Source: an uncultured Lachnospiraceae bacterium (lineage in GTDB: Bacteria; Bacillota; Clostridia; Lachnospirales; Lachnospiraceae). From it: a stretch of 64,000 nucleotides of DNA. The stretch lies in the NCBI GenBank assembly GCA_946615865.1, contig CAMOIJ010000007.1:21435-85434 (forward strand), read 5' to 3'. Positions within the stretch are counted from its first letter, which is position 1. Every line of letters begins with the position of its first letter. Made by a program: the position numbers and the translations under genes. The notes below the pieces were generated by a model that made no database searches, had not been told where the DNA came from, and was given only the letters and a program-made list of their open reading frames with translations. Below are positions 36,433 through 61,127 of this stretch, piece after piece.

Positions 36433-36657
36433 ATGACTGTTAAAAAGGATCGAACGCTAAAGGTATACGAGACTAGCGGATATAAATATCAGCAGACACC
36501 AACGATTATGCTAAGAGGAAAATGGCTGGAGCAATTTGGATTCGCTATCGGGGACAGGCTAACTGTTCACTGCGAAAAAGGAACGCTGGTGGTCATGAAG
36601 GATACAACTGATTCAGAAATGGCGCATGCGCTGAAGGAGAAAAATCATGGCAAATAA
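36433..36657 (+). CDS. SymE-like / SpoVT-AbrB-fold small protein
   Basis: TPTIMLRGKWLEQFGFAIGDRLTVHCEKGTLVVMKD resembles SymE; GGAGGT at 36420-36425 before ATG 36433. Confidence 0.7.
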   Translation: MTVKKDRTLKVYETSGYKYQQTPTIMLRGKWLEQFGFAIGDRLTVHCEKGTLVVMKDTTDSEMAHALKEKNHGK

Positions 36658-38248
36658 GATGGAAGATAGATTGTGGGCATATCTCAACATGTTCCGGGGA
36701 ATTATGAAACCGGCACAAATGTTAGAAGGCACGCTTCTGATTACAGAAGTAAAGGCTGCTAATCCTGATAAGGATCTGGATAGAGATTCGGCCTATGAGG
36801 CAATGTTGGTTTTGGCGGACAAGCTCCAGGTGCGTAACCCGTTCGCGGATCCGGATGCGTTTTTCCAAGCGTACCAGCAGATCGATGGTGAACCAGACTG
36901 GGAAGATATGATGTATCGCTACCTCGGGATGGAAGGCTTCTACATGATCTTGACGCCGACTGTGCTTATGAAGGAAATGGCATCTCGCATCGGTGATAAT
37001 AGCAAGAAGGTTATGATTGCCGAGGGAGAAAAGTTTGTTCCGAACTTAAAAGCAACGGTTGATGAGCACCCGAATTGCACGTTTACAGTTACAACACAAA
37101 GCCCATTATATGAAACAGTCTTCCGCCGGATTTTTTCGGGATACGATAATGTTACGGTTGCAAACTCAAGCATTTATCAATATGGCTTCCTTGATGAACA
37201 ATTTGACCTGATCTTATCCGTTCCTAACTTTGCGGGACGTGCCCTGGCAGAGGATGATACGAACTTCATCTGTAGAGACACAGAAATGGTCGCGTTGGAA
37301 AACCTGCTTCTTCACCTTTCCTCATCTGGGGAGTTGGTGATCGTAATGCCCGGAAAGATCACTTTTGCCAGCGGACGAGTAAACGACCTGAGGGAGTTCA
37401 TTATGCAGATGTATAAGCTGGAAGAGATTTCAGAACTGCCAGAGGGTATTTTCCAGAACACCGGCATCAAAACATACTTGCTTGTTGTCGGCGCCGGCCG
37501 TACGGAGGATGTTGTGATCCGTAAGTACTCTGCGGTTGGAAGAAAAACAAAACGCGGTCCCGTCAAAGAAATGGAAATCAGTGCAGACTCCTTTGCAATG
37601 CTGGAGGAGTTTGAAGAAATCGGCGATTGGAATATTGATAAGCTCCTGACCCAGCAGGATGAGGAGTTCATGAAATATCAGGCGTCGGATATGAGAAAAA
37701 CCCTCCTGGGAGATGTTGCTGAAATCTTCCGCGGGAAGGCAGTATCAAAGAAGCAAGAAACTGGTTCGATCGGCGTAGTGAATATTTCCAACATTGGACA
37801 GTATGAGCTCGATTACGAAACGTTGGATAAGTTGGACGAAGAAGATCGGAAGGTTGCGAACTATATTCTGAAAGAGGGAGATGTACTCCTTCCGGCCAGA
37901 GGTACTGCAATCAGGACGGCAGTATTCCACGAACAGCTTTATCCTTGTATCGCTTCGGCCAACGTAATAGTGATCCGGCCAAACCCGAAGATGCTGGACA
38001 GCACTTATCTGAAGATATTCATTGACAGCCCGATCGGCAACAGCATGATCAGCAGCTTGCAGCAGGGCATGACGGTAATGAATATCAGCTATAAAGACCT
38101 AAAGATGCTGGAGATTCCCTTTCCCGTCCTTGAGGAGCAGCAACGGATCTCCAAGCAATATACAGATTCATATAAGGAATATATTGATAGCGTCTCCGCT
38201 GCAGAGAAGCGGTGGCGGGAGACACTGTCTAAACTTCAGACATTTTGA
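36647..38248 (+). CDS. HsdM-like (N6 DNA methylase fold) pseudo-enzyme fused to HsdS-like target recognition domain
   Basis: HsdM-like pattern LTPTVLMKEMASRI ... FDLILSVPNF ... GELVIVMPGKITF ... LPEGIFQNTGIKTYLLVV; C-terminal TRD LGDVAEIFRGKAVSKKQ...GDVLLPARGTAIRTA...QQRISKQ. Confidence 0.8.
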   Translation: MANKMEDRLWAYLNMFRGIMKPAQMLEGTLLITEVKAANPDKDLDRDSAYEAMLVLADKLQVRNPFADPDAFFQAYQQIDGEPDWEDMMYRYLGMEGFYMILTPTVLMKEMASRIGDNSKKVMIAEGEKFVPNLKATVDEHPNCTFTVTTQSPLYETVFRRIFSGYDNVTVANSSIYQYGFLDEQFDLILSVPNFAGRALAEDDTNFICRDTEMVALENLLLHLSSSGELVIVMPGKITFASGRVNDLREFIMQMYKLEEISELPEGIFQNTGIKTYLLVVGAGRTEDVVIRKYSAVGRKTKRGPVKEMEISADSFAMLEEFEEIGDWNIDKLLTQQDEEFMKYQASDMRKTLLGDVAEIFRGKAVSKKQETGSIGVVNISNIGQYELDYETLDKLDEEDRKVANYILKEGDVLLPARGTAIRTAVFHEQLYPCIASANVIVIRPNPKMLDSTYLKIFIDSPIGNSMISSLQQGMTVMNISYKDLKMLEIPFPVLEEQQRISKQYTDSYKEYIDSVSAAEKRWRETLSKLQTF

Positions 38249-38265
38249 AAGGAGATGCGGCCAAG

Positions 38266-38901
38266 ATGAAAATGTATAACATAGTTGATCAGCGCGGTAA
38301 CTACTATAAGATCGGCGAAAAAGGAAATCTCGTGGTCGCAAAAGACTCTGACGATGCGAATTTATTCTCTCTGCGGGAGGCTAACGATCGTATCGGAGGC
38401 GGCCGGAAGGCAAGATTTTATTCCATCCTGGAAGTCGAAATTCCTGATGATGTAGAAGATGAACCAGTGTACGCAGCACCTGAATATGACGAGATTAAGA
38501 AGCCGACCATGTACGATGATCTCCAGAACGACTGGGAAGCAACATTGTCCAAGCTCTGCTATATGAGCTCCCATATCCAGGAATACCAGGATAACTTAAA
38601 CACGATGCTGTCCGATGTGGATAAAGAAATCTGTGACCTCCTTCACTATTTGGAACTGAATGACTTGGATGATTCTGAGATGTTAAAGGCATCAAAGATG
38701 CTGCAAGACCGTCGGCGCCGTAGGCGTGAAATCAAGGATGAGATGGAAAAGACAGCAGTGATACGCTCCACTTTCCTGGACAGAGAGTTCGGAATCAAGG
38801 TGCATCAGGGACTTGAACAGATAGAGCATATGAAAGGCAGAATTTATACGCCGCGCAGACTGTCAGACCTTTTTGACGGTCAGATGCGCAGGGCTGTCTG
38901 A
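38266..38901 (+). CDS. Uncharacterised 211-aa protein with predicted coiled coil
   Basis: ORF with RBS AAAGGAG; charged helical C-terminal two thirds (DVDKEICDLLHYLE...RRRRRREIKDEMEK). Confidence 0.75.
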   Translation: MKMYNIVDQRGNYYKIGEKGNLVVAKDSDDANLFSLREANDRIGGGRKARFYSILEVEIPDDVEDEPVYAAPEYDEIKKPTMYDDLQNDWEATLSKLCYMSSHIQEYQDNLNTMLSDVDKEICDLLHYLELNDLDDSEMLKASKMLQDRRRRRREIKDEMEKTAVIRSTFLDREFGIKVHQGLEQIEHMKGRIYTPRRLSDLFDGQMRRAV

Positions 38902-38915
38902 GGAGGATATAACGA

Positions 38916-41270
38916 ATGAAGAATAAAGATCTTGCGCTGAAACTTGTCAGTACCGAAACGGAAGAACAGCTTATATCTGTGCTTACGGAGGCCGGTTACT
39001 GGAATGATTTTGCCTACTGGCAGCCTTATGGTGGAAACGAGAACAACTATTCCATTATCGGCAATCAGCAGAGTAATGCGGATGCGGCCCTTGTTGAGAA
39101 ACTGATCAATTCTGTGGATGCGGTTCTCATGAAGGAATGCATGATTCGCGGAATAGATGTCAGTGGGCCGGATGCACCTCAGTCTATGAGAGAAGCCCTT
39201 GCTACATTCTTTAAGATGAGGAACGGGCAGCTGATGAACTTAGATGCCAAAAGCCGTAATGAGCTGTCCAAAAACATCATTCTTGCGGCAACCGGAAAGG
39301 CTCGCGGCGAGGAGAACCTTACAATTGTGGATCGTGGTGAGGGTCAGACTCCGCTCCGCATGCCTAAAACCATTCTGTCCTTAAGCCGTAGCAATAAGTT
39401 AAAAGTTCCTTTTGTACAGGGAAAGTTTAACATGGGTGGCACTGGCGCATTCCCGTTTTGCGGAAAGCATCATCTTCAGCTTGTGATTTCAAAGCGTTGC
39501 CCGCAGATACCGAATACCGATAATGATCCTACTTTTGATGAGTGGTCTGTAACTGTTGTGCGTAAGGAGAAAGCCCGCGAAGGACGTAAAAGCTCTATGT
39601 ACACATACCTTACAGATGCTCAGGGGAAATTGCTTTCCTTTAAAGCAGAGTCGTTACCGATCATTCCGACGACAAAGGACCCGGGCGATACAGATGCTGA
39701 ATTGCAGTACGGTACATTTATGAAACTGTATAATTACGCGCTGACGGGATATAAGACCAATATCTTATTTGATTTGAATTACCGTCTGTCTTTGCTGATT
39801 CCGGATTTAGCGCACCCAATTAGACTTCGTGAGTGCAGGCCTGGGTATACCGGCAATACACTTGCAACTACCCTGAATGGGATGGTTACAAGATTATACG
39901 ATGATACGAAAAATAACATCGAAGAGAATTTCCCGTCCTCCGGAGCATTGAACGTCGATGGACAGGAGATGCCATTTGCAATTTATCTTTTCAAGAAGGA
40001 TAAGCAGAAGAACTACCGTAAAAAAGATGGCGTAGTCTATGTTATGAACGGCCAGACGCAGGGGATCATTGGCGATAACTTCTTTGATAAGGCAAAGCTC
40101 TCATATATTAAATCCAGCCTGCTGGTTTTAGTCGACTGTTCGAAGTTTGACATTGACCATCAGGAAGCGATGTTTATGACGAGCCGCGACAGATTTAGGA
40201 CCAGCGATTTTTCAAAAGATATTGAGAAAGAACTTATCAGCATTCTCAGAGACAATCCGGGCTTAAAGAAAGCAGAACACGATCGCAGAACAGCTGCCCT
40301 GAAGGATAAGATTGCCGATAATAAGCCGTTAAAAGATGTCCTGCAGAACATCCTGAAGAAGTCTTCGGTCTTGTCAAGAATATTCATCGCCGGTACAACC
40401 ATACAATCTCCTTACGGAAAGGATCAGCCAGCCGGGGAAACAGATACCTTTGATGGGAAGAAACATCCAACACGTTTTGACCTTATGGGAAAACTGAAGG
40501 ATGGAAAGTTAATGAAGAAAAAGCCCATCAACCATGATTTCCGAGTACAGTTTGATACAGATGTTCAGAATGACTATTTCAATCGCCCTGTGGATGCCGG
40601 TGAGTTGATCCTTTCGCTAAACGGTGTAGAGCGACGGGATCTTGTTAGAAGTCTGAATCTGTATAACGGAACAGCGACGCTGACTATTCGGTTCCCTGAT
40701 GAAACAGCGGTTGGTGATGTCCTGACATTTACAACGATGATTAAAGACGACTGCATTGTTGAAGATTTTGTGAGTACCATTGTGATTACCGCAGAAGAGC
40801 CTCAGGAATATACCGGAGGCGGTGGCGGCGAACGCAGAAAGCCGAAGGATAAAGATAAGACCGGTGCCAATGCGAATGGCGGTTTTGCACTCCCGGAGAT
40901 TATCCCGATTCAAAAAGAAGAGTGGGAAGCAAATGAAATGGACCAGTATTCTGCTCTTAAATATGTTCCGACGGATGAAGGTGGAGATTACTACCTTAAT
41001 ATGGACAATACGTATTTGTTGACGGAGCTTGCAGGTATACGAGATTCCGCCAAGAGCGAACTTACCAAAGCTCGTTATACGTACAGCATGGCTTTAATTG
41101 GCATGAGTGTAATCGGTTATTACAAAAACAGCGGTAGCGGTGATGAAGAGGCTGACGTTCCGAAGATGGTTAAAGACGTGAGCACAATGATCGCACCGGT
41201 ATTAATCCCGATGTTAGAAGCTATGTCTGATCTGGACCTGTCTGAGATCAACTCCTCATCGGATGATTAA
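38916..41270 (+). CDS. GHKL-family (MORC/MutL/histidine kinase-like) ATPase
   Basis: N-box ALVEKLINSVDAVLMKE; G1 IVDRGEGQTP; G2 QGKFNMGGTGAF. Confidence 0.8.
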   Translation: MKNKDLALKLVSTETEEQLISVLTEAGYWNDFAYWQPYGGNENNYSIIGNQQSNADAALVEKLINSVDAVLMKECMIRGIDVSGPDAPQSMREALATFFKMRNGQLMNLDAKSRNELSKNIILAATGKARGEENLTIVDRGEGQTPLRMPKTILSLSRSNKLKVPFVQGKFNMGGTGAFPFCGKHHLQLVISKRCPQIPNTDNDPTFDEWSVTVVRKEKAREGRKSSMYTYLTDAQGKLLSFKAESLPIIPTTKDPGDTDAELQYGTFMKLYNYALTGYKTNILFDLNYRLSLLIPDLAHPIRLRECRPGYTGNTLATTLNGMVTRLYDDTKNNIEENFPSSGALNVDGQEMPFAIYLFKKDKQKNYRKKDGVVYVMNGQTQGIIGDNFFDKAKLSYIKSSLLVLVDCSKFDIDHQEAMFMTSRDRFRTSDFSKDIEKELISILRDNPGLKKAEHDRRTAALKDKIADNKPLKDVLQNILKKSSVLSRIFIAGTTIQSPYGKDQPAGETDTFDGKKHPTRFDLMGKLKDGKLMKKKPINHDFRVQFDTDVQNDYFNRPVDAGELILSLNGVERRDLVRSLNLYNGTATLTIRFPDETAVGDVLTFTTMIKDDCIVEDFVSTIVITAEEPQEYTGGGGGERRKPKDKDKTGANANGGFALPEIIPIQKEEWEANEMDQYSALKYVPTDEGGDYYLNMDNTYLLTELAGIRDSAKSELTKARYTYSMALIGMSVIGYYKNSGSGDEEADVPKMVKDVSTMIAPVLIPMLEAMSDLDLSEINSSSDD

Positions 41271-41291: not shown

Positions 41292-42281
41292 ATGTCAGTA
41301 TTCTACGTTTTTCAGGGCGAAACCTATAGGGAAGAAAGATCTGGCGGGTATGTGTGGTCGCCGCAGTTGAATAGCGCCGGGCGCAGAAATGCAGGTTATT
41401 CCATGATGACGGAGGTAAAGAAGGGTGACTTTATTCTTCATAATTCCAATGGTGAGATCATGGCAATCAGTGTGGCTATAGACGACTGCTATGAAGCTGA
41501 TCAGCCCGCAGAACTTTCTGCAGCGGATACATCTGTTGAATGGTCAGATGAGGGATATCGGATTGATACGAGGTATTATGATTTCGATATCCCTGTCAGG
41601 GCCACCAATTATAAAGAGTGGCTTCAGGCTCATTATGATCCTAATAGTGCGTTCACCAAACTCGGGACCGGCAAGCAGCAGTATATGAATCACCTTGCTG
41701 ATGAGCATGCTATTTTTCTTCTGGGTAAGGCGATCGAGCTTCAGGCCGATGAGGACACACTGAAATATCTAAAGGCCGCACTGAGCGAGATCGTCGGAGA
41801 TATGGACTCCGAGTATGATCAGGTTGAGTTTGAAGAAATCGGCGAAATTCTGGATGCCGATGACAGTGATGAGGTTCCGGAGTGGCCCGGTATTAGAGAG
41901 CCACAGGAAACCTCCACTTCCCCATTGACATCCAGAGAAATTCCAAAACGGAATCCTAATAGGGCCGCGGATGCGCTGAAGCGTGCTGGGTATCTTTGTG
42001 AGGTTGATAATCGGGACCGGACATTCCTTCGTAAAAACGGTAAGCCATACACAGAACCGCATCATCTAATTCCGATAAGCAAATATAAGGAATTTGATAC
42101 AAGTCTGGATGTGATGGAAAACATCGTGTCCTTGTGTAGCCACTGTCATAACCTGCTTCACTATGGAAGACTGAACGATAAAATTCCGGTACTGACAAAA
42201 CTCTATAATGAGAGAAAGACTGCTCTGCATCGCATCGGTATTACACTGACACTGGACCAGTTGATCTCGTATTACAAGTAA
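41292..42281 (+). CDS. HNH endonuclease with putative EVE/PUA-like N-terminal domain
   Basis: RNPNRAADALKRAGYLCEVDNRDRTF...EPHHLIPISKY...ENIVSLCSHCHNLLHYG; N-term YVWSPQ...MMTEVKKGDFILHNSNGEIMAISVAI. Confidence 0.85.
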   Translation: MSVFYVFQGETYREERSGGYVWSPQLNSAGRRNAGYSMMTEVKKGDFILHNSNGEIMAISVAIDDCYEADQPAELSAADTSVEWSDEGYRIDTRYYDFDIPVRATNYKEWLQAHYDPNSAFTKLGTGKQQYMNHLADEHAIFLLGKAIELQADEDTLKYLKAALSEIVGDMDSEYDQVEFEEIGEILDADDSDEVPEWPGIREPQETSTSPLTSREIPKRNPNRAADALKRAGYLCEVDNRDRTFLRKNGKPYTEPHHLIPISKYKEFDTSLDVMENIVSLCSHCHNLLHYGRLNDKIPVLTKLYNERKTALHRIGITLTLDQLISYYK

Positions 42282-42296
42282 AGGGAGGCACTAGAC

Positions 42297-44714
42297 ATGC
42301 TTGGAGCAATTATCGGGGACATCGTTGGCTCCCGATTCGAATGGAATAACTATAAAGCGAAGGACTTTGACTTCCTGACATACAAGTGTTCCCCAACTGA
42401 CGACAGCATCATGTCGTTGGCGGTGGCCAAGGCGATCCTAAAGAGCAAGCCGGATCACAGTGACTTGTCTGTTATGGCGGTTCGCTACATGCAGCAGCTT
42501 GGAAACCTGTATCCGAATGCCGGCTATGGTGGAATGTTCCGTAAGTGGCTAAAGGATAGAAACCCTCAGCCGTATAAGAGCTATGGTAATGGAGCCGCGA
42601 TGAGAGTCAGCGCGGTTGGTTTTGCTGCAAAAGATCTGACTGATGCGAAGATCATGTCGCGCATGGTCACTGCTGTTACGCATAACCATCCGGAGGGGAT
42701 CAAAGGCGCAGAGGCAACTGCTGTAGCAATCTTCCTGGCCCGTTCCGGCAAGAGCATGCTCGAGATCCGTGATGTCATCGACAAGGAATACTATCCGATG
42801 AACTTCACTTTGGATGGCATCCGGAAGGATTATAAATTCGATGTTTCTTGCCAGGGTAGTGTACCCCAGGCGTTGATGGCATTTTTTGAATCAACGAGCT
42901 TTGAAGATGCGATCCGGAATGCAGTCTCCATCGGAGGAGATAGCGATACACTGGCAGCCATCACTGGCGGGGTAGCTGAAGCATATTATGGAATCCCGGC
43001 GGATATCCGAAAACACGCACTGACATTTCTTGACGAGAGGCAGCTTCAGATACTGGTTGATTTTGAAAATCAGTATCCTCCTGTGATGGAAAAGAAAGTC
43101 GGTGATGTAAGTGTGCCGGTAGAACGGAAAATAGAGGAAAAGGTAGCTGGGACGGACCGCGGAACTCTTATCGAAGATGCTGCACGTGCAGCAGATGCGG
43201 ATGTAGCCGCTGCCGCGACGACTCCTCGGGAAACTACCAGTCAGCAGCTGTTTAATCATCTGTTTGAGGCGTGCAATATTCTGCGCGGGCCCATCAATCA
43301 GGATGAGTATAAGAGCTATGTCACACCGATCCTTTTCTTCAAGAGGATTTCGGATGTGTACGATGAGGAATATCAAGAAGCGTTGGACTTCTCTGGTGGT
43401 GATGTTGAGTATGCAGAAGCGGAAGAGATGCATTCTTTCGTCATTCCGGATGGTTGCCATTGGGAAGATGTACGCGCGGTAAGCCAAAATGTAGGTAAAG
43501 CTATCGTGAATGCTATGACGGGAATAGAGAAAGCGAATCCCGATACACTTTCTGGTGTATTCAGCAGCTTTGATGATGCGACTTGGACTGATAAAAACAA
43601 GCTGTCTGATGAACGCTTGAAAAACCTGATCGAGCATATGTCTCTCATACAGGTCGGTAACCGCAACTACTCCGCTGACATCATGGGTGATAGCTATGAA
43701 TTTCTAATTAAGAAGTTTGCTGATATGTCAAAGAAAAATGCTGGTGAGTTCTATACCCCGAGAACGATAGTGAAACTCATGGTTGACCTGCTTGATCCCA
43801 AGCCGGGTGAAACTGTTTATGACCCAGCCTGTGGAACGGGAGGCATGCTCATAGAAGCAATCCATCATATGCATGGAGATCGTCTTGCGTATGGACGGAT
43901 TTATGGACAGGAGAACAACCTTTCTACCTCTGCTATAGCAAGAATGAATTTGTATCTTCACGGCGCAAAAGATGTTCAGATTAAGCAAGGAGACACATTA
44001 AGGAATCCTCTTTTCTTAGAAAAAGGGAAGCTGAAAGTATTCGACTGTGTATTGGCAAATCCGCCATTTGGCTTGGAGCAGTGGGGAGCAAATCAGTTCG
44101 AGAATGATCAATATGGCAGAAACATCTGGGGTTGCCCATCTGATACCTGCGCAGATTATGCCTGGGTACAGCACATGGTAAAATCGATGAATGTCAAAAC
44201 AGGAAGATGTGCAGTAGTCCTTCCTCAAGGTGTTCTGTTTCATGGAGGGAAGGAAGGTCAGATCAGGGAACAATTAGTCAGATCTGACAAGATAGAAGCC
44301 GTAATAACTTTAGCGAGCGGGGTCTTTTTTAACACAAATGTGTCAGCGTGTATTGTATTCCTGAACAATAAGAAAGAACATAAACATGTTGGAAGTATCT
44401 GTCTTATAGATGGCAGCACAATCTTTACGCCACGAAGAGCTCAGAATTATATTTCGGAATCTGATGCAAAAAAATTGTATGAATTATACGTTGATTATCA
44501 AGACGTGATTGACTACTGCAAGGTTGTCACTATTGCGGATATAGAAAAAAGAGGCTTTGATTTGAGTGTAAAGAAATACATTGAGAAATCAAAGTATGAA
44601 CCTGTTTCACCTAAAATTGTAAGAGATCGATATTTTGATGCATTGAGTAAAGCCCGTATAGCAGAACGTGAAATGAAGGCATTACTGATTGAGGGAGGGT
44701 TCATCAATGGCTAA
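42297..44714 (+). CDS. ADP-ribosylglycohydrolase-HsdM (type I DNA methyltransferase) fusion protein
   Basis: N-term AIIGDIVGSRFEW, SPTDDSIMSLAVAKAIL, SIGGDSDTLAAITGGVAEAYYGIP; C-term HsdM FYTPRTIVKLMVDLLDPKPGETVYDPACGTGGML and CVLANPPFG; one continuous 805-aa frame. Confidence 0.92.
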   Translation: MLGAIIGDIVGSRFEWNNYKAKDFDFLTYKCSPTDDSIMSLAVAKAILKSKPDHSDLSVMAVRYMQQLGNLYPNAGYGGMFRKWLKDRNPQPYKSYGNGAAMRVSAVGFAAKDLTDAKIMSRMVTAVTHNHPEGIKGAEATAVAIFLARSGKSMLEIRDVIDKEYYPMNFTLDGIRKDYKFDVSCQGSVPQALMAFFESTSFEDAIRNAVSIGGDSDTLAAITGGVAEAYYGIPADIRKHALTFLDERQLQILVDFENQYPPVMEKKVGDVSVPVERKIEEKVAGTDRGTLIEDAARAADADVAAAATTPRETTSQQLFNHLFEACNILRGPINQDEYKSYVTPILFFKRISDVYDEEYQEALDFSGGDVEYAEAEEMHSFVIPDGCHWEDVRAVSQNVGKAIVNAMTGIEKANPDTLSGVFSSFDDATWTDKNKLSDERLKNLIEHMSLIQVGNRNYSADIMGDSYEFLIKKFADMSKKNAGEFYTPRTIVKLMVDLLDPKPGETVYDPACGTGGMLIEAIHHMHGDRLAYGRIYGQENNLSTSAIARMNLYLHGAKDVQIKQGDTLRNPLFLEKGKLKVFDCVLANPPFGLEQWGANQFENDQYGRNIWGCPSDTCADYAWVQHMVKSMNVKTGRCAVVLPQGVLFHGGKEGQIREQLVRSDKIEAVITLASGVFFNTNVSACIVFLNNKKEHKHVGSICLIDGSTIFTPRRAQNYISESDAKKLYELYVDYQDVIDYCKVVTIADIEKRGFDLSVKKYIEKSKYEPVSPKIVRDRYFDALSKARIAEREMKALLIEGGFING

Positions 44715-46191
44715 TAGGATATCAAAGTCTGAGTTAGAATCGTACCTTTGGGGAGCAGCGGTTCTTCTTCGAAATAATATCGATGCGGGAGCTTATAAGC
44801 AATACATTTTCCCATTGCTTTTCTTTAAGCGACTTAACGATGTTTATGAGGAAGAATCGAAAAAAGCTATTGCTGAAAATGGACCAGAAGCCGAGATGTG
44901 GGAAGAAACACATAGTTTTGCTATTCCTGCTGGAGCTCGTTGGTCAGATGTTCGCAACGTTCCTCAAGACGTTGGAAAGGCTATTCAAGCAGCCTTCAGA
45001 GCTATCGAGAGCGCAAATAGCGATAAGCTGCAGGGTATTTTTGGAGATGGGACTTGGACAAATAAAAACCGTCTTCCCGACCGGCTGTTAAAGGATTTGT
45101 TAGAGCATTTCAGTACAAAGACTTTATCAATCGAGAATCTTCCTGAAGATGAACTCGGAAACGGTTATGAGTACCTGATAAAAAAATTTGCTGATGATAG
45201 TGGGCATACAGCGCAAGAGTTCTACACAAACCGGACAGTGGTGCATCTGATGACCGAGATGCTTAAACCGGAATCCGGTGAATCAATATATGATCCCACA
45301 TGTGGAAGCGCGGGCATGCTTATATCCTCCATTGCGTATCTTAAAGATCAGAAAAAAGAATGGCGGAATGTGTCACTTTATGGCCAAGAAGTAAACGCTC
45401 TGACTTCGGCTATAGGACGAATGAACTGTATCTTGCACGGTATTAATGATTTTAATATCGTGAACGGGGATACTTTAGCTGCACCTGCTTTTATTGAGAA
45501 TGGCCAGCTTAGAAAATTTGATTTGGTTCTCGCTAATCCACCCTATTCTATCAGTGAGTGGAATAGGGACGCATTTGCTAACGATAGATATGGAAGGAAC
45601 TTTCTGGGAACTCCACCTCAAGGACGTGCAGATTACGCTTTCTTCCAACATATTCTTAAGAGCATGGATCTTAAGACGGGAAGGTGTGCAATCCTTTTTC
45701 CTCATGGCGTTTTGTTTAGAAATGAGGAAAAAGAGATGCGTGAAAAACTGATCCGTTCAGATTTACTTGAATGCGTTATCGGAATAGGGCCTAATCTTTT
45801 CTACAACGCTACAATGGAAGCATGTATTGTTATATGCAGATCGACGAAGCCTGACTCGCATAAAGGCTATGTGCTTTTCATCAATGCGGTAAACGAAGTT
45901 ACGAGAAAGAATGCTGAAAGCAATTTGGAACCTCAGCATATTCAAAAAATTGCATCGGCGTATGCCAATTTTGCTGACGAGGATGAATTCGCTGCAAAGG
46001 TTTCCATTCGGGAAATTGAGAAGAATGATTTCCTGTTAAATATTCCGCTGTATGTCAAAAACGATTCAGATATAACGCCTGTTGACGATAGGTCAAAGGA
46101 GGAGATATTTGAAGAATGGATTAGCCTGTCGGAGGAAACCACTATCGCGTACGATATGCTTAATTCCATGATGGGAGGGCAGGACAAATGA
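44707..46191 (+). CDS. hsdM: Type I restriction-modification methyltransferase HsdM (second, divergent M subunit)
   Basis: EFYTNRTVVHLMTEMLKPESGESIYDPTCGSAGML; LVLANPPYSISEW; starts inside the end of the preceding ORF. Confidence 0.93.
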   Translation: MANRISKSELESYLWGAAVLLRNNIDAGAYKQYIFPLLFFKRLNDVYEEESKKAIAENGPEAEMWEETHSFAIPAGARWSDVRNVPQDVGKAIQAAFRAIESANSDKLQGIFGDGTWTNKNRLPDRLLKDLLEHFSTKTLSIENLPEDELGNGYEYLIKKFADDSGHTAQEFYTNRTVVHLMTEMLKPESGESIYDPTCGSAGMLISSIAYLKDQKKEWRNVSLYGQEVNALTSAIGRMNCILHGINDFNIVNGDTLAAPAFIENGQLRKFDLVLANPPYSISEWNRDAFANDRYGRNFLGTPPQGRADYAFFQHILKSMDLKTGRCAILFPHGVLFRNEEKEMREKLIRSDLLECVIGIGPNLFYNATMEACIVICRSTKPDSHKGYVLFINAVNEVTRKNAESNLEPQHIQKIASAYANFADEDEFAAKVSIREIEKNDFLLNIPLYVKNDSDITPVDDRSKEEIFEEWISLSEETTIAYDMLNSMMGGQDK

Positions 46192-47309
46192 CAACGTATC
46201 ATTTGAGTGATGTCGCCACAGTCTGTAGCGAAACCTTTAAGGGAAATAAAAAAGGGGTTCCTATCGTTGGACTCGAACATCTTATTCCCGAAGATGTTAC
46301 TTTGAATAATTGGGATGTTGATATTGATAATACCTTCACTAAATCCTTCAAACGGGGAGATGTGCTCTTCGGGAGGAGACGAGCATACTTAAAGAAAGCA
46401 GCTCAAGCGCCAATTGATGGAATTTGTTCTGGGGATATCACAGTTATTCGAGCAATTCCAGAAGTGGTTTCACCGAGATTGCTGCCTTTTATCATACAGG
46501 ACGACCACCTCTTTGATTTTGCCGTTGGCAAATCAGCTGGCTCATTATCCCCGAGAGTTAAATGGGAACATCTGGGCAGATATGAGTTTCGACTCCCTGA
46601 TATGGCTGAACAAGAAAAGCTTGCTGATCTGTTGTGGTCTATAGATAAGGCACTCCAGGCTTACAAACAGTTAGCATCAGTTACGATAGATATGATTAAA
46701 GCTCATTTCATCGAAATGTTCTGGAGTGAGAAATATCCATTCGTTGAAATGAAAGACTTGTTACACCAAAACACCAAAACCGAGCGGATAACAAATCCTC
46801 AGGATGAAAAATACGTAACGGTTGCGCTTTACGGAAAAGGTGTACGTGAGAGAAACATAGAGAAGTACGATCCCAAACCGTTTACTGGGTATAGAGTTCA
46901 CGCAGGACAGTTTATCTATTCGCGGATTGATGCGAGAAATGGTGCTTTCGGTATTATTCCAGAAGAACTGGATGGCGCAGTTGTAAGTAAGGATTTCCCT
47001 ACGTTTGATATTGATTCTGAACGAATAACAAATGAGTATCTTATGTTCTCCGTACTTGAAGATAACTTTATTCAGCAGATCAATAGAAACAGTATTGGAA
47101 CCACAAATAGGCAGCGCGTTAGCGAGGAAGCTTTTATGTCTTACGAAATAAAACTTCCGAGTATAGCTGAGCAATTACAATTTGCGGATTTTAAAGCACA
47201 AGCAGACAAATCACTACATCTACTCGAAAGAACTATTAATGAAACGCAGGCATTGCGGAAAAAGATAGTAGAAGAGAACTTTGTTGTGATAAGGAAGGAG
47301 AATGATTAA
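46188..47309 (+). CDS. hsdS: Type I restriction-modification specificity subunit HsdS
   Basis: Two TRD-like halves: RGDVLFGRRRAYLKKAAQAP...MAEQEKLADLLWSIDKAL and YSRIDARNGAFGIIPEEL...IAEQLQFADF; overlaps hsdM by 4 bp. Confidence 0.92.
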   Translation: MTTYHLSDVATVCSETFKGNKKGVPIVGLEHLIPEDVTLNNWDVDIDNTFTKSFKRGDVLFGRRRAYLKKAAQAPIDGICSGDITVIRAIPEVVSPRLLPFIIQDDHLFDFAVGKSAGSLSPRVKWEHLGRYEFRLPDMAEQEKLADLLWSIDKALQAYKQLASVTIDMIKAHFIEMFWSEKYPFVEMKDLLHQNTKTERITNPQDEKYVTVALYGKGVRERNIEKYDPKPFTGYRVHAGQFIYSRIDARNGAFGIIPEELDGAVVSKDFPTFDIDSERITNEYLMFSVLEDNFIQQINRNSIGTTNRQRVSEEAFMSYEIKLPSIAEQLQFADFKAQADKSLHLLERTINETQALRKKIVEENFVVIRKEND

Positions 47310-50224
47310 TGGCGGTATTCAACGAAGATAACACTACCGAGCAGATGATCATATCGACGCTCAAGAAAAACGGTTGGGAGTACATTCCGGCAGAGGAGCT
47401 TGATCGTGATTACAGCGACGTTATGGTGGAATCCCTGGTTCGCGATGCTTTGATTCGATTAAATCCCGAGATCGCTGAGGATGAATCCAAAGCTGATGAG
47501 GTAATCTACAAACTGCGGACATTGTTTTTATCTACCAATGCGCAGAATCTTGTTACACAGAACGAGGCGTTTAAGCAGTTGGTTTTTGAAAAGAACTCCT
47601 ACCCGTTCGGCGAAGATGGAAAGCAGGTGTCCATTGATTTCTTTGGAACGGAGATCAATGGGAAGCTGGATCAAAACCAGTATGTGGTAACGAATCAGTG
47701 GGTGTATCCGAAAAAGGAAGGCGGAAAGAGGCTGGACATTGTTCTTTTGGTAAATGGTTTCCCGTTTGCCGTGGGCGAACTTAAGACACCAGTTCGCGCA
47801 GCAATTACCTGGCTTGATGGCGCCCAGGACATCAACAAGTACGAACAAAGCATCCCACAGATGTTCGTGACAAATGTATTTAACTTTGCTACCGAGGGTA
47901 AGTGTTATCGGTACGGTTCCGTCTGTATGCCGGCTGCGAAGTGGGGCCCATGGCACACAACAGACGATAAATCCGATGGAAGCCTGGCAGCGGTACAGAC
48001 CAGCATAAAAGACATGATTACGCAGTATAAGATCATGGACATCTTCCAGTTCTTTACCCTGTATGCTACCGATAATAAATACAGAAAATATAAAGTCATT
48101 GCTCGCTATCAGCAGTATGAAGGGGCCAACATGATCGTTGACCGTGTGCGTGCCGGCTATCCGAAGAAAGGTCTGATCTGGCACTTCCAGGGATCCGGGA
48201 AATCCTATCTGATGGAGTTTGCGGCAGTGAAACTGCGTATGCTTCCGGATCTGAAGAATCCGACAGTTATTATCGTCGATGATCGTTTAGACCTGGAATC
48301 TCAGATCACAGCACAGTTCCATTCTTCCGATGTAGGAAACCTGGAGTCTGCATCTACACGCGAACAGCTGATGACGATGCTGCGACAGGATATCCGGAAG
48401 ATTATCATCACTACCATCTTCCGTTTTCAGGAAGTAGATGGCGAGCTGAGCCCGCGTGACAACATTATCGTCATGGTAGATGAATGCCATAGAACGCAGG
48501 AAGGCGACCTGGGTATCAAGATGAGAACCGCGCTGCCTAACGCATTCTTCTTCGGTATGACGGGAACGCCGATCAACCGGACCGACAAGAATACGTTTGC
48601 TACCTTCGGTGCCACTGAGGACCGTAGCGGCTACATGAGCAAGTATTCCTTCTCTGATTCCATTCGCGACCATGCGACACTGCCGCTGAACTTTGAGCCT
48701 GTACCGATTGATCTCCATGTTGATCGTGAAGCTATGGACATGGAGTTTGATATGTTGACGGAGGGTGTGTCTGACGCAGACAAGGCGGAACTGTCTAGAC
48801 GCGTGAACATGCAGGCGATCATGTACAATCCGGCCCGTATTCATAAGGTCTGCGTTCATATTGCAAAGCACTTCACGACGAAGATCCGTCCGAATGGCTA
48901 TAAAGCACAGGTGGTTGTGTATGACCGGCCATGCTGTCTGAAATATAAAGCAGAACTTGATAAGCTCCTGGGACCGGACTGCTCTACGATCGTCATGGAT
49001 ACAAATGACGACAAGGCCGACGAGTATAAAAAATACAGACGGTCCAAGGATGAGGAAGCCAAGGTCTTAGATCGTTTCAGGGACCCTAACGATCCTCTGG
49101 AGATCGTTATCGTCACAGCAAAGCTACTGACCGGTTTCGATGCGCCTATCCTCCAGGTCATGTATCTGGACAAGCCCATGAAGGACCATACCCTTCTGCA
49201 GGCAATCTGCCGGACCAACCGTACTTATGATGAAGGCAAGACTAATGGTCTCATCGTGGATTATATCGGTATCTTTGATAATGTTGCCAAGGCGCTCGAC
49301 TTTGACGAAGGCAGCATGAAAAAGGTCATCACAAACATCGAAGCGGTGAAGAAGCAGATCCCGGCGCTGATCCGTAAGTGCCTCAGTTACTTCATGGGTG
49401 TTGATCGGACAGTCGACGGCTGGGAAGGCCTAATGGCAGCGCAGGAATGCATCCCGACGAATGATTCGAAAGATAAGTTTGCAGCAGACTACCAGGTACT
49501 AAATCGGGCATGGAACGCCGTATCTCCTGATCCGATGTTGAACGCACTGCAGGTAGATTATGTTTGGCTGTCCAAGGTTTATGAATCCGTGAAACCGGCA
49601 AACGGCGGTGGTGGTCTGATTTGGGCTGCCCTCGGTCCGAAAACCATGGACATCGTGAATGCTAATCTTGATGTCGGACAGGTTCATGAGGATGAAGAGA
49701 TCCTTTCACTGGATGCGGAACTGATTGATGCTTTCATAGAAAAGCACAAAGGGGCGCGGAACGCGGCAAAGAGAGTGGAGATAGATTTGGTAGCAAGAAT
49801 ACGGAAACATACAGATGATCCGAAATTTATCCGTCTTGGAGATAAGCTCGAAAAACTGCGTGAGCAGCATGAGCAAGGTCTGATCAACAGCATTGAGTTC
49901 CTGAAGATGCTGTTAGAGCTGGCAAAAGAAGCCGCTGAGGCAGAAAAAGAAGTCGTTCCGGAAGAAGAAGTCGATAAAGGAAAGGCTGCTCTGACCGAGC
50001 TCTTCAACGGTGTGAAAAACGAAAAGACACCGATTATAGTAGAACGCATTGTAACGGATATTGATGATATCGTTAAGATCGTTCGCTTCGATGGCTGGCA
50101 GAATACGACTGGTGGACGCCAGGAAGTTAAGAAAGCCCTCCGCAGCGTGGTATGGGTGAAATATAAGATCAAGGACAAGGAAGTCTTTGATAAGGCCTAC
50201 AGTTACATCGAACAGTATTATTAA
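47309..50224 (+). CDS. hsdR: Type I restriction endonuclease HsdR
   Basis: Nuclease RLDIVLLVNGFPFAVGELKTP; Walker A HFQGSGKSYLMEF; VDECHRTQEG; FFGMTGTPI; QAICRTNR. Confidence 0.96.
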   Translation: MAVFNEDNTTEQMIISTLKKNGWEYIPAEELDRDYSDVMVESLVRDALIRLNPEIAEDESKADEVIYKLRTLFLSTNAQNLVTQNEAFKQLVFEKNSYPFGEDGKQVSIDFFGTEINGKLDQNQYVVTNQWVYPKKEGGKRLDIVLLVNGFPFAVGELKTPVRAAITWLDGAQDINKYEQSIPQMFVTNVFNFATEGKCYRYGSVCMPAAKWGPWHTTDDKSDGSLAAVQTSIKDMITQYKIMDIFQFFTLYATDNKYRKYKVIARYQQYEGANMIVDRVRAGYPKKGLIWHFQGSGKSYLMEFAAVKLRMLPDLKNPTVIIVDDRLDLESQITAQFHSSDVGNLESASTREQLMTMLRQDIRKIIITTIFRFQEVDGELSPRDNIIVMVDECHRTQEGDLGIKMRTALPNAFFFGMTGTPINRTDKNTFATFGATEDRSGYMSKYSFSDSIRDHATLPLNFEPVPIDLHVDREAMDMEFDMLTEGVSDADKAELSRRVNMQAIMYNPARIHKVCVHIAKHFTTKIRPNGYKAQVVVYDRPCCLKYKAELDKLLGPDCSTIVMDTNDDKADEYKKYRRSKDEEAKVLDRFRDPNDPLEIVIVTAKLLTGFDAPILQVMYLDKPMKDHTLLQAICRTNRTYDEGKTNGLIVDYIGIFDNVAKALDFDEGSMKKVITNIEAVKKQIPALIRKCLSYFMGVDRTVDGWEGLMAAQECIPTNDSKDKFAADYQVLNRAWNAVSPDPMLNALQVDYVWLSKVYESVKPANGGGGLIWAALGPKTMDIVNANLDVGQVHEDEEILSLDAELIDAFIEKHKGARNAAKRVEIDLVARIRKHTDDPKFIRLGDKLEKLREQHEQGLINSIEFLKMLLELAKEAAEAEKEVVPEEEVDKGKAALTELFNGVKNEKTPIIVERIVTDIDDIVKIVRFDGWQNTTGGRQEVKKALRSVVWVKYKIKDKEVFDKAYSYIEQYY

Positions 50225-50233
50225 GGAGGTCCT

Positions 50234-50788
50234 ATGGCAAGAAGTGCATATGCCGAGAATTTGATTCGAACAGTGCTGGATAACTCCGAAGCAGATGACT
50301 GGGCCAGCGCCGTACAGGAATGGGAAATTGTCGACTGGGATGAAGATTTAGAGCTAAAGTCTGCCTGCATCTGCGGCAAAGAAAGACTTCGTTATCTTTA
50401 TACGATAAGGAACCGGTACAACGGAAACATCCTGGATCCCATTGGGAGTTCGTGCATCAGGAAGTTCGAGCGTACAGATTTGAATGATGAAGTTTCTGCC
50501 CTGGAAGATATGTTCCGGCTGCTTCATGCATACGAGAACCACGAGTTTATCGCTCTGGATTCACGCCTGTTTTCCAGGAAGCTCCTTCTCTACTTGTATG
50601 AGGATGGGGCTTTCCCTGGCACTACGTATAACCACGGTGACGGGCGTAGGGATTATCAGTTTCTGCTAGATATGTTCAATGCGCATAACGATTCTATCTC
50701 AAGAGCACAGCAAGGGAAGATCAATGCGATCATCATGAATTCGATCATTCCGTATCTGCAGCGAAAGTTACATGCAACAAGGTATTAA
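50234..50788 (+). CDS. Uncharacterised 184-aa protein with CxC...C motif (possible Zn binding)
   Basis: LKSACICGKERLRYLYTIRNRYNGNILDPIGSSCIRKFE. Confidence 0.7.
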   Translation: MARSAYAENLIRTVLDNSEADDWASAVQEWEIVDWDEDLELKSACICGKERLRYLYTIRNRYNGNILDPIGSSCIRKFERTDLNDEVSALEDMFRLLHAYENHEFIALDSRLFSRKLLLYLYEDGAFPGTTYNHGDGRRDYQFLLDMFNAHNDSISRAQQGKINAIIMNSIIPYLQRKLHATRY

Positions 50789-50803: not shown

Positions 50804-52756
50804 TTGGCATATAAAGATTTTAAGGAATACATTCAGGTAAACTATGACTGGCTTTTGCAGGAGGCAATCGATGAGTACCTGCTCAAGCACTATGACGGGA
50901 TTGGATTTCATGGATTGAATGTGCTTTCACTTCTAAAGGCCACGGCAAATAATATTCAGGTCTGCAGCTTGACTTGCCATGACGATATCGGGCCGAGAAT
51001 CCGTGTCGACGTTCACATCAAAGCAAATGTAGTGCTTGGCGGCTTGGGAACATCCAATTACGAAGCGGGTCGGGAGTCGCACTGGTTCACTGTATATCTA
51101 CAGGCAAATTTAAAGGACGGCCTGCATGATGTGGAGGTGCTGGATACCGATATGTATCAGACTCCGAGGTTTAACAAAGATCATGCTTTGGATGAGTTTT
51201 TCCTCCAGTATGTATACTCGGATCAGCTGGAGGACATCGCGGATGAATTTACGGAGTTCTGGTGTGGTGATGAAGTATATGACGGCTGGAACTCCCCACT
51301 GAAAAAGATGCTGGAGGAGCTCGATCTGGTCTGGTACGAGGCAGAACTGCCACAGGGAGAGATGGGCCGCATGTACTTCCGGGAATCGGAGGAACTCGTT
51401 GATGACTTTGTACAAGAGCCCGGGATGCGTTATCCGGAACGACGCCAAGTGAAGAAAACGATCGGTCCTGGAGCCATGCTGATCAGCCATGATTTCTACT
51501 TTATTCCTGGCTATGGCAGTAAGAGCGATACGATCGCGCATGAGATCGTCCACTGGGACCGGCATGAAAAATTCTTCGAGATCCTGGCTCTGTTGAATCA
51601 GGATGAGAAGACTTTGTTTTGTGAAGCCAATCCCAGTGCAAGTTCTCCGGACGAACTCGAAGGTGTCGCCAAGGCACGCTGGTGGGCTGAGTGGCAGGCC
51701 AATGCTCTGGCGCCGCGGTATCTGATGCCCAGGAGAATCTTCAATAGGTACTTTCCTGCTATGCTACAGGAGCAGCGGGAATTGTACGGAGGTACCGAGG
51801 GCCAGGTGATGGAACACGGTCTGCAGCAGATCTCTGGTGTGTTTGGCGTTTCTAAATATGAAGCAAAGCTCAGAGCGATGCAGCTCGGGTATAAGCAGGC
51901 GGAAGGTGCCTTCCTTCGGGTAAATGGCCATCAGCGGGCTCCGTTTTCTTTCAATCCTAATGCTCTGGGAGAGAAAGAAACCTTCATCCTGGACGCGCGT
52001 AATGGAAAACGGATCTGCGAGGAGAATCCGGAGTTTGCAAAGCTGTTCAGCAGCGGTGACTTCATTTATACCGGTCTCGTTGTCTGTATCAACGATCCAC
52101 TGTATGTTCAGAAGACCGATGATCCTTCTTGCCCGCAGGGGTATGAACTTACAGACTATGCACGGGCACATGTGGATCTATGCTGTCTGAAGTTTAAGCG
52201 GGAATACACACGTGTCGGTGCCGCGGAAGAGTATTACAACCAGTGCTATTTCAGCAGGGACGTAAATGCTTCTGAGTTTAAAGAGACAAAGACGATCGAG
52301 CTGTCTTCCAATCAAGATCCAATCGAAGAAGCAAGGCAGCTAAAGCTATTACAGAAAGAAAATATTCGTGTGATGGCGATCAAACGGAAATTACCGACGA
52401 ACTTTGCTGAAACACTGTCTGCCCATATGGACCGCCTGGAGGACGGCGAAGGTAAGAAGATGACGTTCAGGTGCTTGCACGAGCGGACAGGCTTATCGGA
52501 GAAATACCTGAGTAATGTCATCAATGGAGGAAAGAAACCAAGCATCGAAGTTCTCTATGCGATATGCCTGGCAATGCATCTCCACCCGATTTTCAGTGAA
52601 GATGTCATCAAAAAGGCGTATGGTGGTTATCCGGATGATGAGGAAGGAGCTATGGCAGAGTATCTGCTTGGGCATCACTATACGGAATCGATTGATATGA
52701 TCAATGATAAGCTGAAGCAGCTCGGCTATCCGATCTGGGGAAAGGATGTAGCGTAA
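50804..52756 (+). CDS. ImmA/IrrE-family metallopeptidase with C-terminal HTH (XRE-like)
   Basis: HExxH motif SDTIAHEIVHWDRHE; C-terminal HERTGLSEKYLSNVINGGKKPSIEVLYAICLAM; TTG start after GGAGGCGG. Confidence 0.85.
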   Translation: MAYKDFKEYIQVNYDWLLQEAIDEYLLKHYDGIGFHGLNVLSLLKATANNIQVCSLTCHDDIGPRIRVDVHIKANVVLGGLGTSNYEAGRESHWFTVYLQANLKDGLHDVEVLDTDMYQTPRFNKDHALDEFFLQYVYSDQLEDIADEFTEFWCGDEVYDGWNSPLKKMLEELDLVWYEAELPQGEMGRMYFRESEELVDDFVQEPGMRYPERRQVKKTIGPGAMLISHDFYFIPGYGSKSDTIAHEIVHWDRHEKFFEILALLNQDEKTLFCEANPSASSPDELEGVAKARWWAEWQANALAPRYLMPRRIFNRYFPAMLQEQRELYGGTEGQVMEHGLQQISGVFGVSKYEAKLRAMQLGYKQAEGAFLRVNGHQRAPFSFNPNALGEKETFILDARNGKRICEENPEFAKLFSSGDFIYTGLVVCINDPLYVQKTDDPSCPQGYELTDYARAHVDLCCLKFKREYTRVGAAEEYYNQCYFSRDVNASEFKETKTIELSSNQDPIEEARQLKLLQKENIRVMAIKRKLPTNFAETLSAHMDRLEDGEGKKMTFRCLHERTGLSEKYLSNVINGGKKPSIEVLYAICLAMHLHPIFSEDVIKKAYGGYPDDEEGAMAEYLLGHHYTESIDMINDKLKQLGYPIWGKDVA

Positions 52757-53260: not shown

Positions 53261-53761
53261 ATGTCACGTAATTTTCGTACCAAACTGAGTAACCGCACCA
53301 ACTATGTCTACACCGACGCTAAAGGCAAGAACCACATTGTCCGTCCTGGCGAGGAAGACGTCACGCCTGAGATGATCGCCGACCTGCATGCCATGGACGA
53401 TGACTGGTGCAATGCCGAGAACAGAGAACGCTACCACGTTACCGTCCGCCTTGATGCCAGGATTGATACCGATTCTGAAAAGGATGGAAACGAGACAATC
53501 ACCGCAGCGGATCAGCTGGATCCGGAGGCAATCTTCCTGGAGAAGCTCGAAGCCCTGGAACATGCTGAGCAGATCATGCGTCTGCGCAAGGCCCTGCAGC
53601 AGCTGAAGCCGGAGGACAGGTCACTTGTCCAGGATGTCTTCTATCAGGGTATGCAGCAGAAGGATGCTGCGGCGGTACGCGGTGTATCCAAAGCTGCCAT
53701 CACCAAGCGCCTGAAGCGGATTTACCGCGACCTCGGAAAAATTCTTGAAGAACAGGGTTAA
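53261..53761 (+). CDS. Sigma-70 region 4-like phage regulatory protein
   Basis: LRKALQQLKPEDRSLVQDVFYQGMQQKDAAAVRGVSKAAITKRLKRIYRDL. Confidence 0.75.
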   Translation: MSRNFRTKLSNRTNYVYTDAKGKNHIVRPGEEDVTPEMIADLHAMDDDWCNAENRERYHVTVRLDARIDTDSEKDGNETITAADQLDPEAIFLEKLEALEHAEQIMRLRKALQQLKPEDRSLVQDVFYQGMQQKDAAAVRGVSKAAITKRLKRIYRDLGKILEEQG

Positions 53762-53849
53762 CTGATCACCTGGAAATCCAGGTTACACAGGAAGAGCGCT
53801 TTTCCAAGATCAAGAAACCGTTATTCAAGAACAGCGAGGTGACAATCAG

Positions 53850-54137
53850 ATGAATAACAACGAAAAACTTCTGAACGTCATCCGTGCCCTGGAGGCCCTG
53901 ACTGCCAGTCTGAAAGATCTGGCTGGCAGCGAGGGTTCTTCACCGGATACGGGTGAAAAAGAAACAAACGAAAGAACTGTAACCTTTGAAGAAGTCCGAA
54001 AGGCCCTGGCTAAGGTCTGTGCCGCCGGTAAAACGGATGCCGCGCAGGCTCTTGTGAAGAAGTATGGCGGAGATCGCCTGCGGGATGTCCCGCCTGATCA
54101 GTACGCGGATCTTCTTCATGATGCGGAGGCACTCTGA
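53850..54137 (+). CDS. Phage-associated small protein of unknown function
   Basis: EEVRKALAKVCAAGKTDAAQALVKKYGGDRLRDVPPDQYADLLHDAEAL. Confidence 0.65.
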   Translation: MNNNEKLLNVIRALEALTASLKDLAGSEGSSPDTGEKETNERTVTFEEVRKALAKVCAAGKTDAAQALVKKYGGDRLRDVPPDQYADLLHDAEAL

Positions 54138-55285
54138 TGCCGCCGGTAGGGCATTCCGTCACATCACCGTCATCGGCAAACCGGTGGCTGCATTGCACAC
54201 CCAGCGCCAGGCTGAACGCCGTAGCCCAGCAGTCCTCCGAGGCTGCTGCAGAAGGCACAGCAGCACATGAGCTTGCGGAATACAAAATCCGCACGTTCCT
54301 GGGTGAAAAGCTGAAGCGGCCGACATCCGATTATGACTGTGACGAGATGGAAGAAGCGACGGATGACTATCTCTTCTTTATAAGAGAGAAGCTGGCAGCG
54401 GCCAAGGAAACCTGTGAGGACCCTGCAATCTTCGTGGAGCAGCGGATCGATTTCAGTCGGTATGTCCCGAACGGCTATGGCTGTACGGATTGCTGCATCG
54501 TAGCAGATGAGATCATGTACATCATTGACCTGAAATACGGAAAAGGCATCGTGGTCGACGCTGAAGAAAATCCACAGATGAAGATCTATGCACTTGGCTG
54601 TCTGGAACTCTTCTCGGAGCTCTTTGACATACAGCGCGTGTCGCTGAACATCTTCCAACCGCGCCGGGAGAACATATCCACCTGGGAAACCAGTGTGGAA
54701 GATCTTCGGACCTGGGCGGATGAAGTTCTGACACCGAAGGCGAAAGAAGCCTATGAAGGCAACGGCGAGTTCGTGCCGGGCGACTGGTGCATGTTCTGTA
54801 AGGTAGCGCCGAGATGTAGGGCGAGAGCAGATTCCTGCCTGGCACTTGCCCGGATGGAGTTTAAGCCCGGACCGCTTCTTTCCGATGAGGAACTGGGAGA
54901 GGTCATGGAAAAGGCAGATCAGATTTCGAAGTGGGCTGGTGACATCATGGCATACTGCCAGGAGCAGGCCATTGATCACGGCAGACACTTCCCTGGTTAC
55001 AAGGTTGTACAGGGACGCAGTATTCGGAAGTTTTCTGACACAGATGCCGTAGCGCAGGCAGCAAGAGATGCGGGTTACACGGATTCGGATATTTTCACAA
55101 CCAGCCTCATTACTCTCACCGCCTTCGAACGGCTCATGGGAAAGAAGAAATTCCAGGATACCCTGGGTGACTACGTAACAAAAACAACACCAAAGCTGGT
55201 CCTTGTCCCGGAATCGGACAAGCGTCCAGAAATACAGGTTGATTCCGCAATGAAAGATTTTAAAGGAGAATATGACAATGGCTAA
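54137..55285 (+). CDS. DUF2800-like phage protein (PD-(D/E)XK/RecB-like nuclease)
   Basis: SSEAAAEGTAAHELAEYKIR; IIDLKYGKGI; CMFCKVAPRCRARAD. Confidence 0.85.
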   Translation: MPPVGHSVTSPSSANRWLHCTPSARLNAVAQQSSEAAAEGTAAHELAEYKIRTFLGEKLKRPTSDYDCDEMEEATDDYLFFIREKLAAAKETCEDPAIFVEQRIDFSRYVPNGYGCTDCCIVADEIMYIIDLKYGKGIVVDAEENPQMKIYALGCLELFSELFDIQRVSLNIFQPRRENISTWETSVEDLRTWADEVLTPKAKEAYEGNGEFVPGDWCMFCKVAPRCRARADSCLALARMEFKPGPLLSDEELGEVMEKADQISKWAGDIMAYCQEQAIDHGRHFPGYKVVQGRSIRKFSDTDAVAQAARDAGYTDSDIFTTSLITLTAFERLMGKKKFQDTLGDYVTKTTPKLVLVPESDKRPEIQVDSAMKDFKGEYDNG

Positions 55286-55838
55286 TTACGAAGCAAAACT
55301 TATCAACGACACGAAGGTCCTGACCGGCAAGATCCGTTTCTCTTACGCTCATCTGTTTGAGCCCTGGGGTGCGAGTGGCGCCGAGCCGAAGTACTCCGTT
55401 TCCATCCTGATCCCGAAGACCGATACCAAGACGGTGGAGGTGATCCGTAAGGCGATCGAGAACGCCACTGCGGAAGCCGTGCAGAAGTACGGGAAGAACT
55501 TCAAGTCTGCTCGTCTGCATACACCGATCCATGACGGAGATGTGGAGAAACCTGGTGACGAGGCCTATGCCGGCCAGTACTACATCAACTGCAACAACCG
55601 TCTGGCACCGCAGGTGGTGGATATCAACTGTGACCGGATCGAAGATCCCGAAGAAGTATATTCCGGTGCCTATGGCCGTATCACCCTGAACTTCTATGGC
55701 TACTCTGTTTCCGGCAACACGGGTATCGCGGCGTCCCTGCAGAATGTGCAGAAGCTGGAAGACGGTGAGCGTCTCGGCGGAGGCAGGTCCAGTGCCCTGG
55801 CTGATTTTGGCGGGGCCGGCGAGGACTTCCTGAACTAA
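55278..55838 (+). CDS. DUF2815-like phage protein (probable ssDNA-binding)
   Basis: VLTGKIRFSYAHLFEPWGASGAEPKYSVSILIPKTDTKTVE. Confidence 0.85.
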   Translation: MANYEAKLINDTKVLTGKIRFSYAHLFEPWGASGAEPKYSVSILIPKTDTKTVEVIRKAIENATAEAVQKYGKNFKSARLHTPIHDGDVEKPGDEAYAGQYYINCNNRLAPQVVDINCDRIEDPEEVYSGAYGRITLNFYGYSVSGNTGIAASLQNVQKLEDGERLGGGRSSALADFGGAGEDFLN

Positions 55839-55903
55839 TCATAATCATTTACTCGGTAGGGCGGCGGGAGCAATCCCGCTGCCTTTTTCAGGAGGTGCTC
55901 ACA

Positions 55904-57886: not shown

Positions 57887-57896
57887 TATGCACGGG

Positions 57897-57945
57897 TTAA
57901 CCGGCCTCCTACTTTTCCAGGTTACATAGGAGGTCGGTTTTTTGA
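57897..57945 (+). terminator. Terminator after phage DNA polymerase
   Basis: ACCGGCCTCCTA ... TAGGAGGTCGGT followed by TTTTTG. Confidence 0.7.
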
Positions 57946-57976
57946 TCTCCGAATACATAAAAGGAGGTCGTTACCA

Positions 57977-58330: not shown

Positions 58331-58339
58331 GGTGTAGAA

Positions 58340-61005: not shown

Positions 61006-61127
61006 ATGCATGTGTGCCGGTCTACGCCAGTCATATCTAAAAACTCCTATAGGCCTTAAAAAAAATGATTATAGAGAAGTTTATGAAATGACTGTCGAGA
61101 CTGGCACAGCCGATAAGGATTGACGTA

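Follow-up and report, generated by a model that had tools for sequence, protein, structure and literature searches.

A GHKL–S5 ATPase in a variable accessory position of a type I restriction–modification operon: a candidate DNA clamp

A compact type I operon and the phage-type module that follows it

In this work we analysed the window, by which we mean the whole stretch of 64,000 nucleotides studied here, from an uncultured Lachnospiraceae bacterium. It carries a restriction operon of 11 genes, almost gapless and 16 kb long, which runs on the forward strand from a SymE-like ORF to position 52756. This first gene (36433–36657) encodes a SymE-like toxin of 74 amino acids (Pfam SymE_toxin, 7e-14) and overlaps the start of the next one (36647–38248), whose product combines an HsdM-like fold with a single TRD (Pfam Methylase_S, 5e-14; N6_Mtase, 5e-8). 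Motifs I and IV are altered in this protein, motif IV being SVPN and not NPPF/Y, and it looks from its sequence like a DNA-reading pseudo-methyltransferase. There follow u218 (38245–38901; 218 amino acids, no family match except a weak S-subunit match), the gene for a GHKL protein (38916–41270), a gene for an EVE-HNH endonuclease (41292–42281), an ADP-ribosylglycohydrolase–HsdM fusion (42297–44714; Pfam ADP_ribosyl_GH, 5e-35; HsdM_N, 7e-24; N6_Mtase, 3e-93), HsdM (44689–46191; Pfam and PADLOC), HsdS (46188–47309; Methylase_S, PADLOC Specificity_I) and HsdR (47309–50224; NCBIfam TIGR00348, 1e-140, above cutoff). The type I subunits are complete, HsdM being present twice, and these Pfam, PADLOC and NCBIfam assignments bear out the initial annotation, which had placed the GHKL gene within a restriction–modification (R–M) operon. 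Near the operon end lies u184 (50234–50788), a protein of 184 amino acids with no Pfam match, and the last gene (50804–52756) encodes a protein with an IrrE-like peptidase and an HTH (weak matches to HTH_3 and Peptidase_M78), which is probably a regulator of the element; a homologue of it stands after HsdR in a related operon (L088). The ADP-ribosylglycohydrolase–HsdM fusion is kept in every related operon on a contig long enough to include it (L088, L089, L136, L137 and L138), and it may serve against ADP-ribosylation, either by phage enzymes or of DNA.

The operon is followed by a phage-type replication module (53261–63393) with an exonuclease, an ssDNA-binding protein, a primase/helicase and an SNF2-like helicase. 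Judged by the neighbouring rlmD gene, the closest relative (90.5% DNA identity) carries different genes downstream of it and so does not share the island; the right end of the element is out of view because the contig ends with the window.

The EVE-HNH protein has the features of a type IV, modification-dependent enzyme. Its residues 1–151 match VcaM4I (6yex, 4e-17), its HNH part matches the 5mC-specific McrA-type enzyme 6ghc (4e-8), and both the base-pocket residues P24, W84, Q129 and Y131 and the HNH motif are kept. The likeness to VcaM4I holds over the EVE domain and its base pocket, whereas the HNH part is closer to 6ghc and, unlike in the VcaM4I case, a GHKL gene precedes (PMC7897488). 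A larger protein of related layout is encoded at locus L141 (6955–9678): it has 908 amino acids, with an EVE-like domain in its N-terminal part, an HNH at the C terminus and a large unassigned middle.

Motifs, fold and affiliation of the GHKL protein

The GHKL gene (38916–41270, + strand) is an ORF of 784 codons with an ATG start and no internal stop, preceded by a ribosome-binding site (gaggagg); there is no rival frame, and the opposite strand is crowded with stops. The N-box (E61..N65..D68A), the G1 box (D139xGEGQ) and the lid (F166VQGKFNMGGTG) were compared in 60 homologues from many phyla, in which E61, N65, D68, D139-x-G-E-G-Q and F166VQGKFNMGG show no or hardly any variation, a conservation far above chance. 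The N-box, DRGEGQ and GGTG motifs pointed out in the initial annotation are thus real, and the intact N-box, G1 and G2 together with a transducer domain make the protein a member of the GHKL superfamily of the S5/transducer type. It has no profile match in Pfam, PADLOC, NCBIfam or PHROGs, and the earlier suggestion that the subfamily may be uncharacterised agrees with its having no name in these four collections; six of the 60 relatives match HATPase_c_3 weakly. No HisKA/DHp domain was recognised by Pfam, so that the protein does not qualify as a sensor histidine kinase.

An AlphaFold2 model made from the family alignment (mean pLDDT 84.8) was compared with the PDB by Foldseek, as a whole and for its C-terminal half. 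The whole model matched HtpG, GyrB/ParE, topo VI-B, MutL, TRAP1 and MORC2/3, with E-values of 1e-11 to 1e-6 for HtpG (the best by E-value), GyrB/ParE, topo VI-B, MutL and DNA-bound MORC2; no sensor kinase was among the matches listed. Among viral models, the matches were phage RIIA-type and Hsp90/topoisomerase-like proteins. The fold is that of the MutL, MORC and topoisomerase-type GHKL–S5 ATPases and not that of a sensor kinase, in keeping with the MutL/MORC type proposed initially. Neither of the outcomes that would have spoken against the initial annotation, a sensor kinase or a protein with no link to defence, was found. The TM-scores are modest, and a differing domain arrangement is one likely reason. 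Topo VI-B shares the GHKL and transducer fold and is a good Foldseek match, at about 10% identity, but unlike topo VI-B the protein has no topo VI-A-like partner recognised near its gene. Some topo VI-B subunits likewise end in an Ig-like domain. At the level of profiles, a PDB search with the family alignment gave no match, and hhalign against alignments built from related genomes was marginal for MutL (E 0.006) and practically negative for HtpG/Hsp90; a clamp mechanism shared with these proteins is therefore an argument from fold.

The ATPase and transducer part extends to about residue 445 and is followed by a long helix (448–482), an Ig-like beta-sandwich (about 518–627), a flexible Gly/Lys linker, GGGGGERRKPKDKDK, at about 635–650 and a small terminal alpha/beta domain (about 660–783). 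The linker had been noted initially and lies inside a segment of low model confidence (633–658). This anatomy narrows the roughly 500 C-terminal residues that had been left unassigned: part of them belong to the ATPase/transducer and the helix, and about 280 stay without assignment. Modelled alone, the C-terminal 279 residues (pLDDT 90) resembled Ig-like proteins and similar beta-sandwiches, with no nuclease among the Foldseek matches listed. The C-terminal domains also contain conserved polar residues, TD549xND..R557 and N695xD697N698, and E704xK706 is found in 44 of the 60 relatives; the window protein has no ExK.

The nearest described proteins are the prokaryotic MORC and paraMORC1–5 families (Iyer, Abhiman and Aravind, 2008; PMC2292703). 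As presented in the main text of that paper, they too are GHKL–S5 ATPases extended at the C terminus, and they too lie in R–M surroundings together with methyltransferases, SFII helicases, HNH and Vsr; the convergent pair of GHKL and N4/N6 methyltransferase genes described below did not come up in our reading of it. The MORC S5 signature GhXhhpXXRhl is present in none of 60 family members, Q replacing R at the candidate position in 59 of them. The ExxxH of paraMORC2, in the C-terminal part of S5, occurs in at most two of the 60 at any position, and the HxH of paraMORC5 in 13, at position 382 only and within S5. The RE-fold nuclease of paraMORC3 and GHKL-Shedu is not among the Foldseek matches listed for the C-terminal model, and the TIR domain of paraMORC4 gave no Pfam match in the protein or its relatives. 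The C-terminal extension and HNH neighbourhood of paraMORC1 would fit, in a comparison made by description only. Judged by these sequence features, we place the family as a separate variant of the MORC/paraMORC kind and in none of the named families; paraMORC1 would be a conceivable home for it. PF17942 (Morc6_S5) detected no bacterial MORC: 196 genomes of the order, 30 genomes with relatives and the control genomes all gave none. VcSduA, a GHKL-Shedu protein with anti-phage activity, resembles the window protein in its N-terminal GHKL ATPase and has been modelled as a clamp-like dimer, but it ends in a DUF4263 nuclease, whereas the window protein ends in the Ig-like and alpha/beta domains (PMC12137116).

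Neighbours of the relatives and the variable slot

A single scan of genomes confirmed at least 144 relatives, and 80 of these were retrieved for analysis. Those retrieved are mostly 35–45% identical, and their hosts include Bacillota, Bacteroidota, Planctomycetota, Chloroflexota, Pseudomonadota and methanogenic archaea; within the window's own order a relative is present in only two of 392 genomes, and phage records contain none at E 1e-5. On the tree, the nearest proteins (L010, L012 and L020; 98 SH-aLRT) come from Bacteroides and Clostridia hosts, and each gene adjoins a C5 methyltransferase of about 840 amino acids, which in L012, the one scanned, also has an N6 methyltransferase domain. 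This distribution points to horizontal spread of the gene. The most divergent relative (L005) adjoins a C5 methyltransferase and Vsr.

In the sister clade of the window protein's clade, GHKL and an N4/N6 methyltransferase are co-inherited and co-diverging. An amino-methyltransferase of one cluster (N6_N4_Mtase, PF01555, in the member scanned) is near the GHKL gene in 36 loci and directly adjacent in 32; in 29 of these 32 the two genes converge, -3 to 66 bp apart. The methyltransferase label changes three times on the GHKL tree, against a mean of 19.8 after shuffling, and the protein distances of the two partners are correlated (Mantel r 0.61, a value reached in 0 of 5000 permutations). The ORF clusters that recur near the relatives include no recognised nuclease family. 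Other defence neighbours are SIR2, DndB, a NERD nuclease, Vsr and a PLD-helicase, and small genes often lie 5' of GHKL (winged-helix-like, ribbon-helix-helix-like, or of about 85 amino acids), which, as a guess, may supply specificity. Many members of the branch of about 785 amino acids have no methyltransferase or nuclease nearby, hence a modification partner is not universal; one such gene environment (L040) consists of heme-biosynthesis-like genes on both sides. We also considered GHKL and EVE-HNH as a conserved pair and obtained no support for it: no EVE-HNH homologue was found in the other GHKL loci, the arrangement is seen in the window operon only among the loci examined, and the pairing may be accidental.

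Operons with matching first and later genes were collected from viral contigs and from genomes of the window's order. They differ between the pseudo-methyltransferase and the ADP-ribosylglycohydrolase–HsdM fusion, where the window has u218, GHKL and EVE-HNH. This slot is empty in L088, L136 and L138, holds a DUF2971 protein in L137 and holds u218 with an SRA-like protein and a Schlafen-type (SLFN) helicase in L089; in L139 a GmrSD-like pair follows the pseudo-methyltransferase, on a contig that stops before the Hsd genes. The slot is a variable accessory position, with GHKL and EVE-HNH as its cargo in the window, and several of its inserts are of the kind that restricts modified DNA. In related operons GHKL is missing and other genes stand in its place, which makes it an exchangeable cargo: the initial placement in an R–M operon stands, but not as a fixed type I component. 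The protein u218 is present in only two operon copies (the window and L089, 74% identical), both with insert genes; it was dropped as a candidate GHKL partner, L089 having no GHKL. The accessory cassette of the window operon is well supported as such. Elsewhere TgvAB, a two-gene, modification-dependent type IV module that is likewise embedded in a type I R–M operon, was shown to work (PMC11411939). TgvAB is GmrSD-like, as is the pair in L139, whereas the window insert consists of GHKL and EVE-HNH. The variable slot suggests a role of type I operons as vehicles for exchangeable cassettes that restrict modified DNA.

A possible clamp and its alternatives

On balance we lean towards a reading in which the GHKL protein dimerises into an ATP-dependent clamp on DNA, of the same kind as MutL, MORC and topo VI-B, and forms, with EVE-HNH, an accessory defence cassette lodged in the variable slot of this mobile operon. 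On binding ATP, the dimer would shut its N-terminal gate on incoming DNA, while contacts with DNA or with a partner would be made by the Ig-like and terminal domains. How the DNA is modified, as set or read by associated enzymes, would govern the clamp; these enzymes would be N4/N6 or C5 methyltransferases in the relatives and EVE-HNH and Hsd in the window. The clamp might then hold and compact foreign DNA itself, or license a neighbouring nuclease to cut. Direct results of the analysis are the fold, the intact and conserved motifs, the place in the operon, the variability of the slot and, for one clade, co-inheritance with methyltransferases; the dimeric clamp, its binding to DNA, the sensing of modification, a defence role and any joint action with EVE-HNH are inferred, as is the ATP-driven clamp or remodeller in a defence complex suggested by the initial annotation.

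It is conceivable, if rather unlikely, that GHKL is instead a stand-alone, single-gene effector that travels in a defence hotspot independently of EVE-HNH and Hsd. Many relatives are indeed lone genes, some beside housekeeping genes, EVE-HNH does not recur next to GHKL, and the slot accepts unrelated cargo; the tight pairing and co-divergence of a whole clade with its methyltransferase nevertheless make it probable that at least some members act together with a partner. The top rank of HtpG by Foldseek, and the presence of possible regulators (the SymE-like and IrrE-HTH proteins) in the same operon, would also fit a regulator or Hsp90-like assembly chaperone of the restriction complex, for instance one that delays restriction after transfer of the island. 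We consider this quite improbable, as the profile comparison reveals no Hsp90 relationship, and the L088 operon of the same lineage is complete without GHKL, which makes a need for it in Hsd assembly unlikely. Least probable of all, and to us very doubtful, is an undetected nuclease in the C-terminal domain that would make the protein a self-contained restriction enzyme like VcSduA or paraMORC3: the conserved polar residues and the ExK of most relatives could be read in this way, but the confident C-terminal model matches Ig-like and beta-sandwich proteins, and the window protein is among those without ExK.

A bolder form of the clamp reading, which we regard as unlikely but worth stating, is restriction without a nuclease: the methyltransferase would mark self DNA, and the GHKL clamp would close on, and compact or silence, DNA that lacks the mark or bears a wrong one. 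If so, the family would offer prokaryotes an equivalent of MORC-type silencing in which no cutting enzyme is required, and the sister clade with its convergent methyltransferase would be the minimal, two-gene form. The function of prokaryotic MORC relatives has been an open question since 2008, and the nuclease-fused VcSduA is the only one with a tested activity found in our literature search (PMC12137116). A widespread family that is compactly paired and co-inherited with methyltransferases and has no recognisable nuclease allows a direct test of modification-gated restriction by a GHKL clamp alone. Finally, a second, different GHKL-like protein, with an N-box-like QNSLDA and no Pfam match, is encoded directly after the GHKL gene in L012 (12837–14729).
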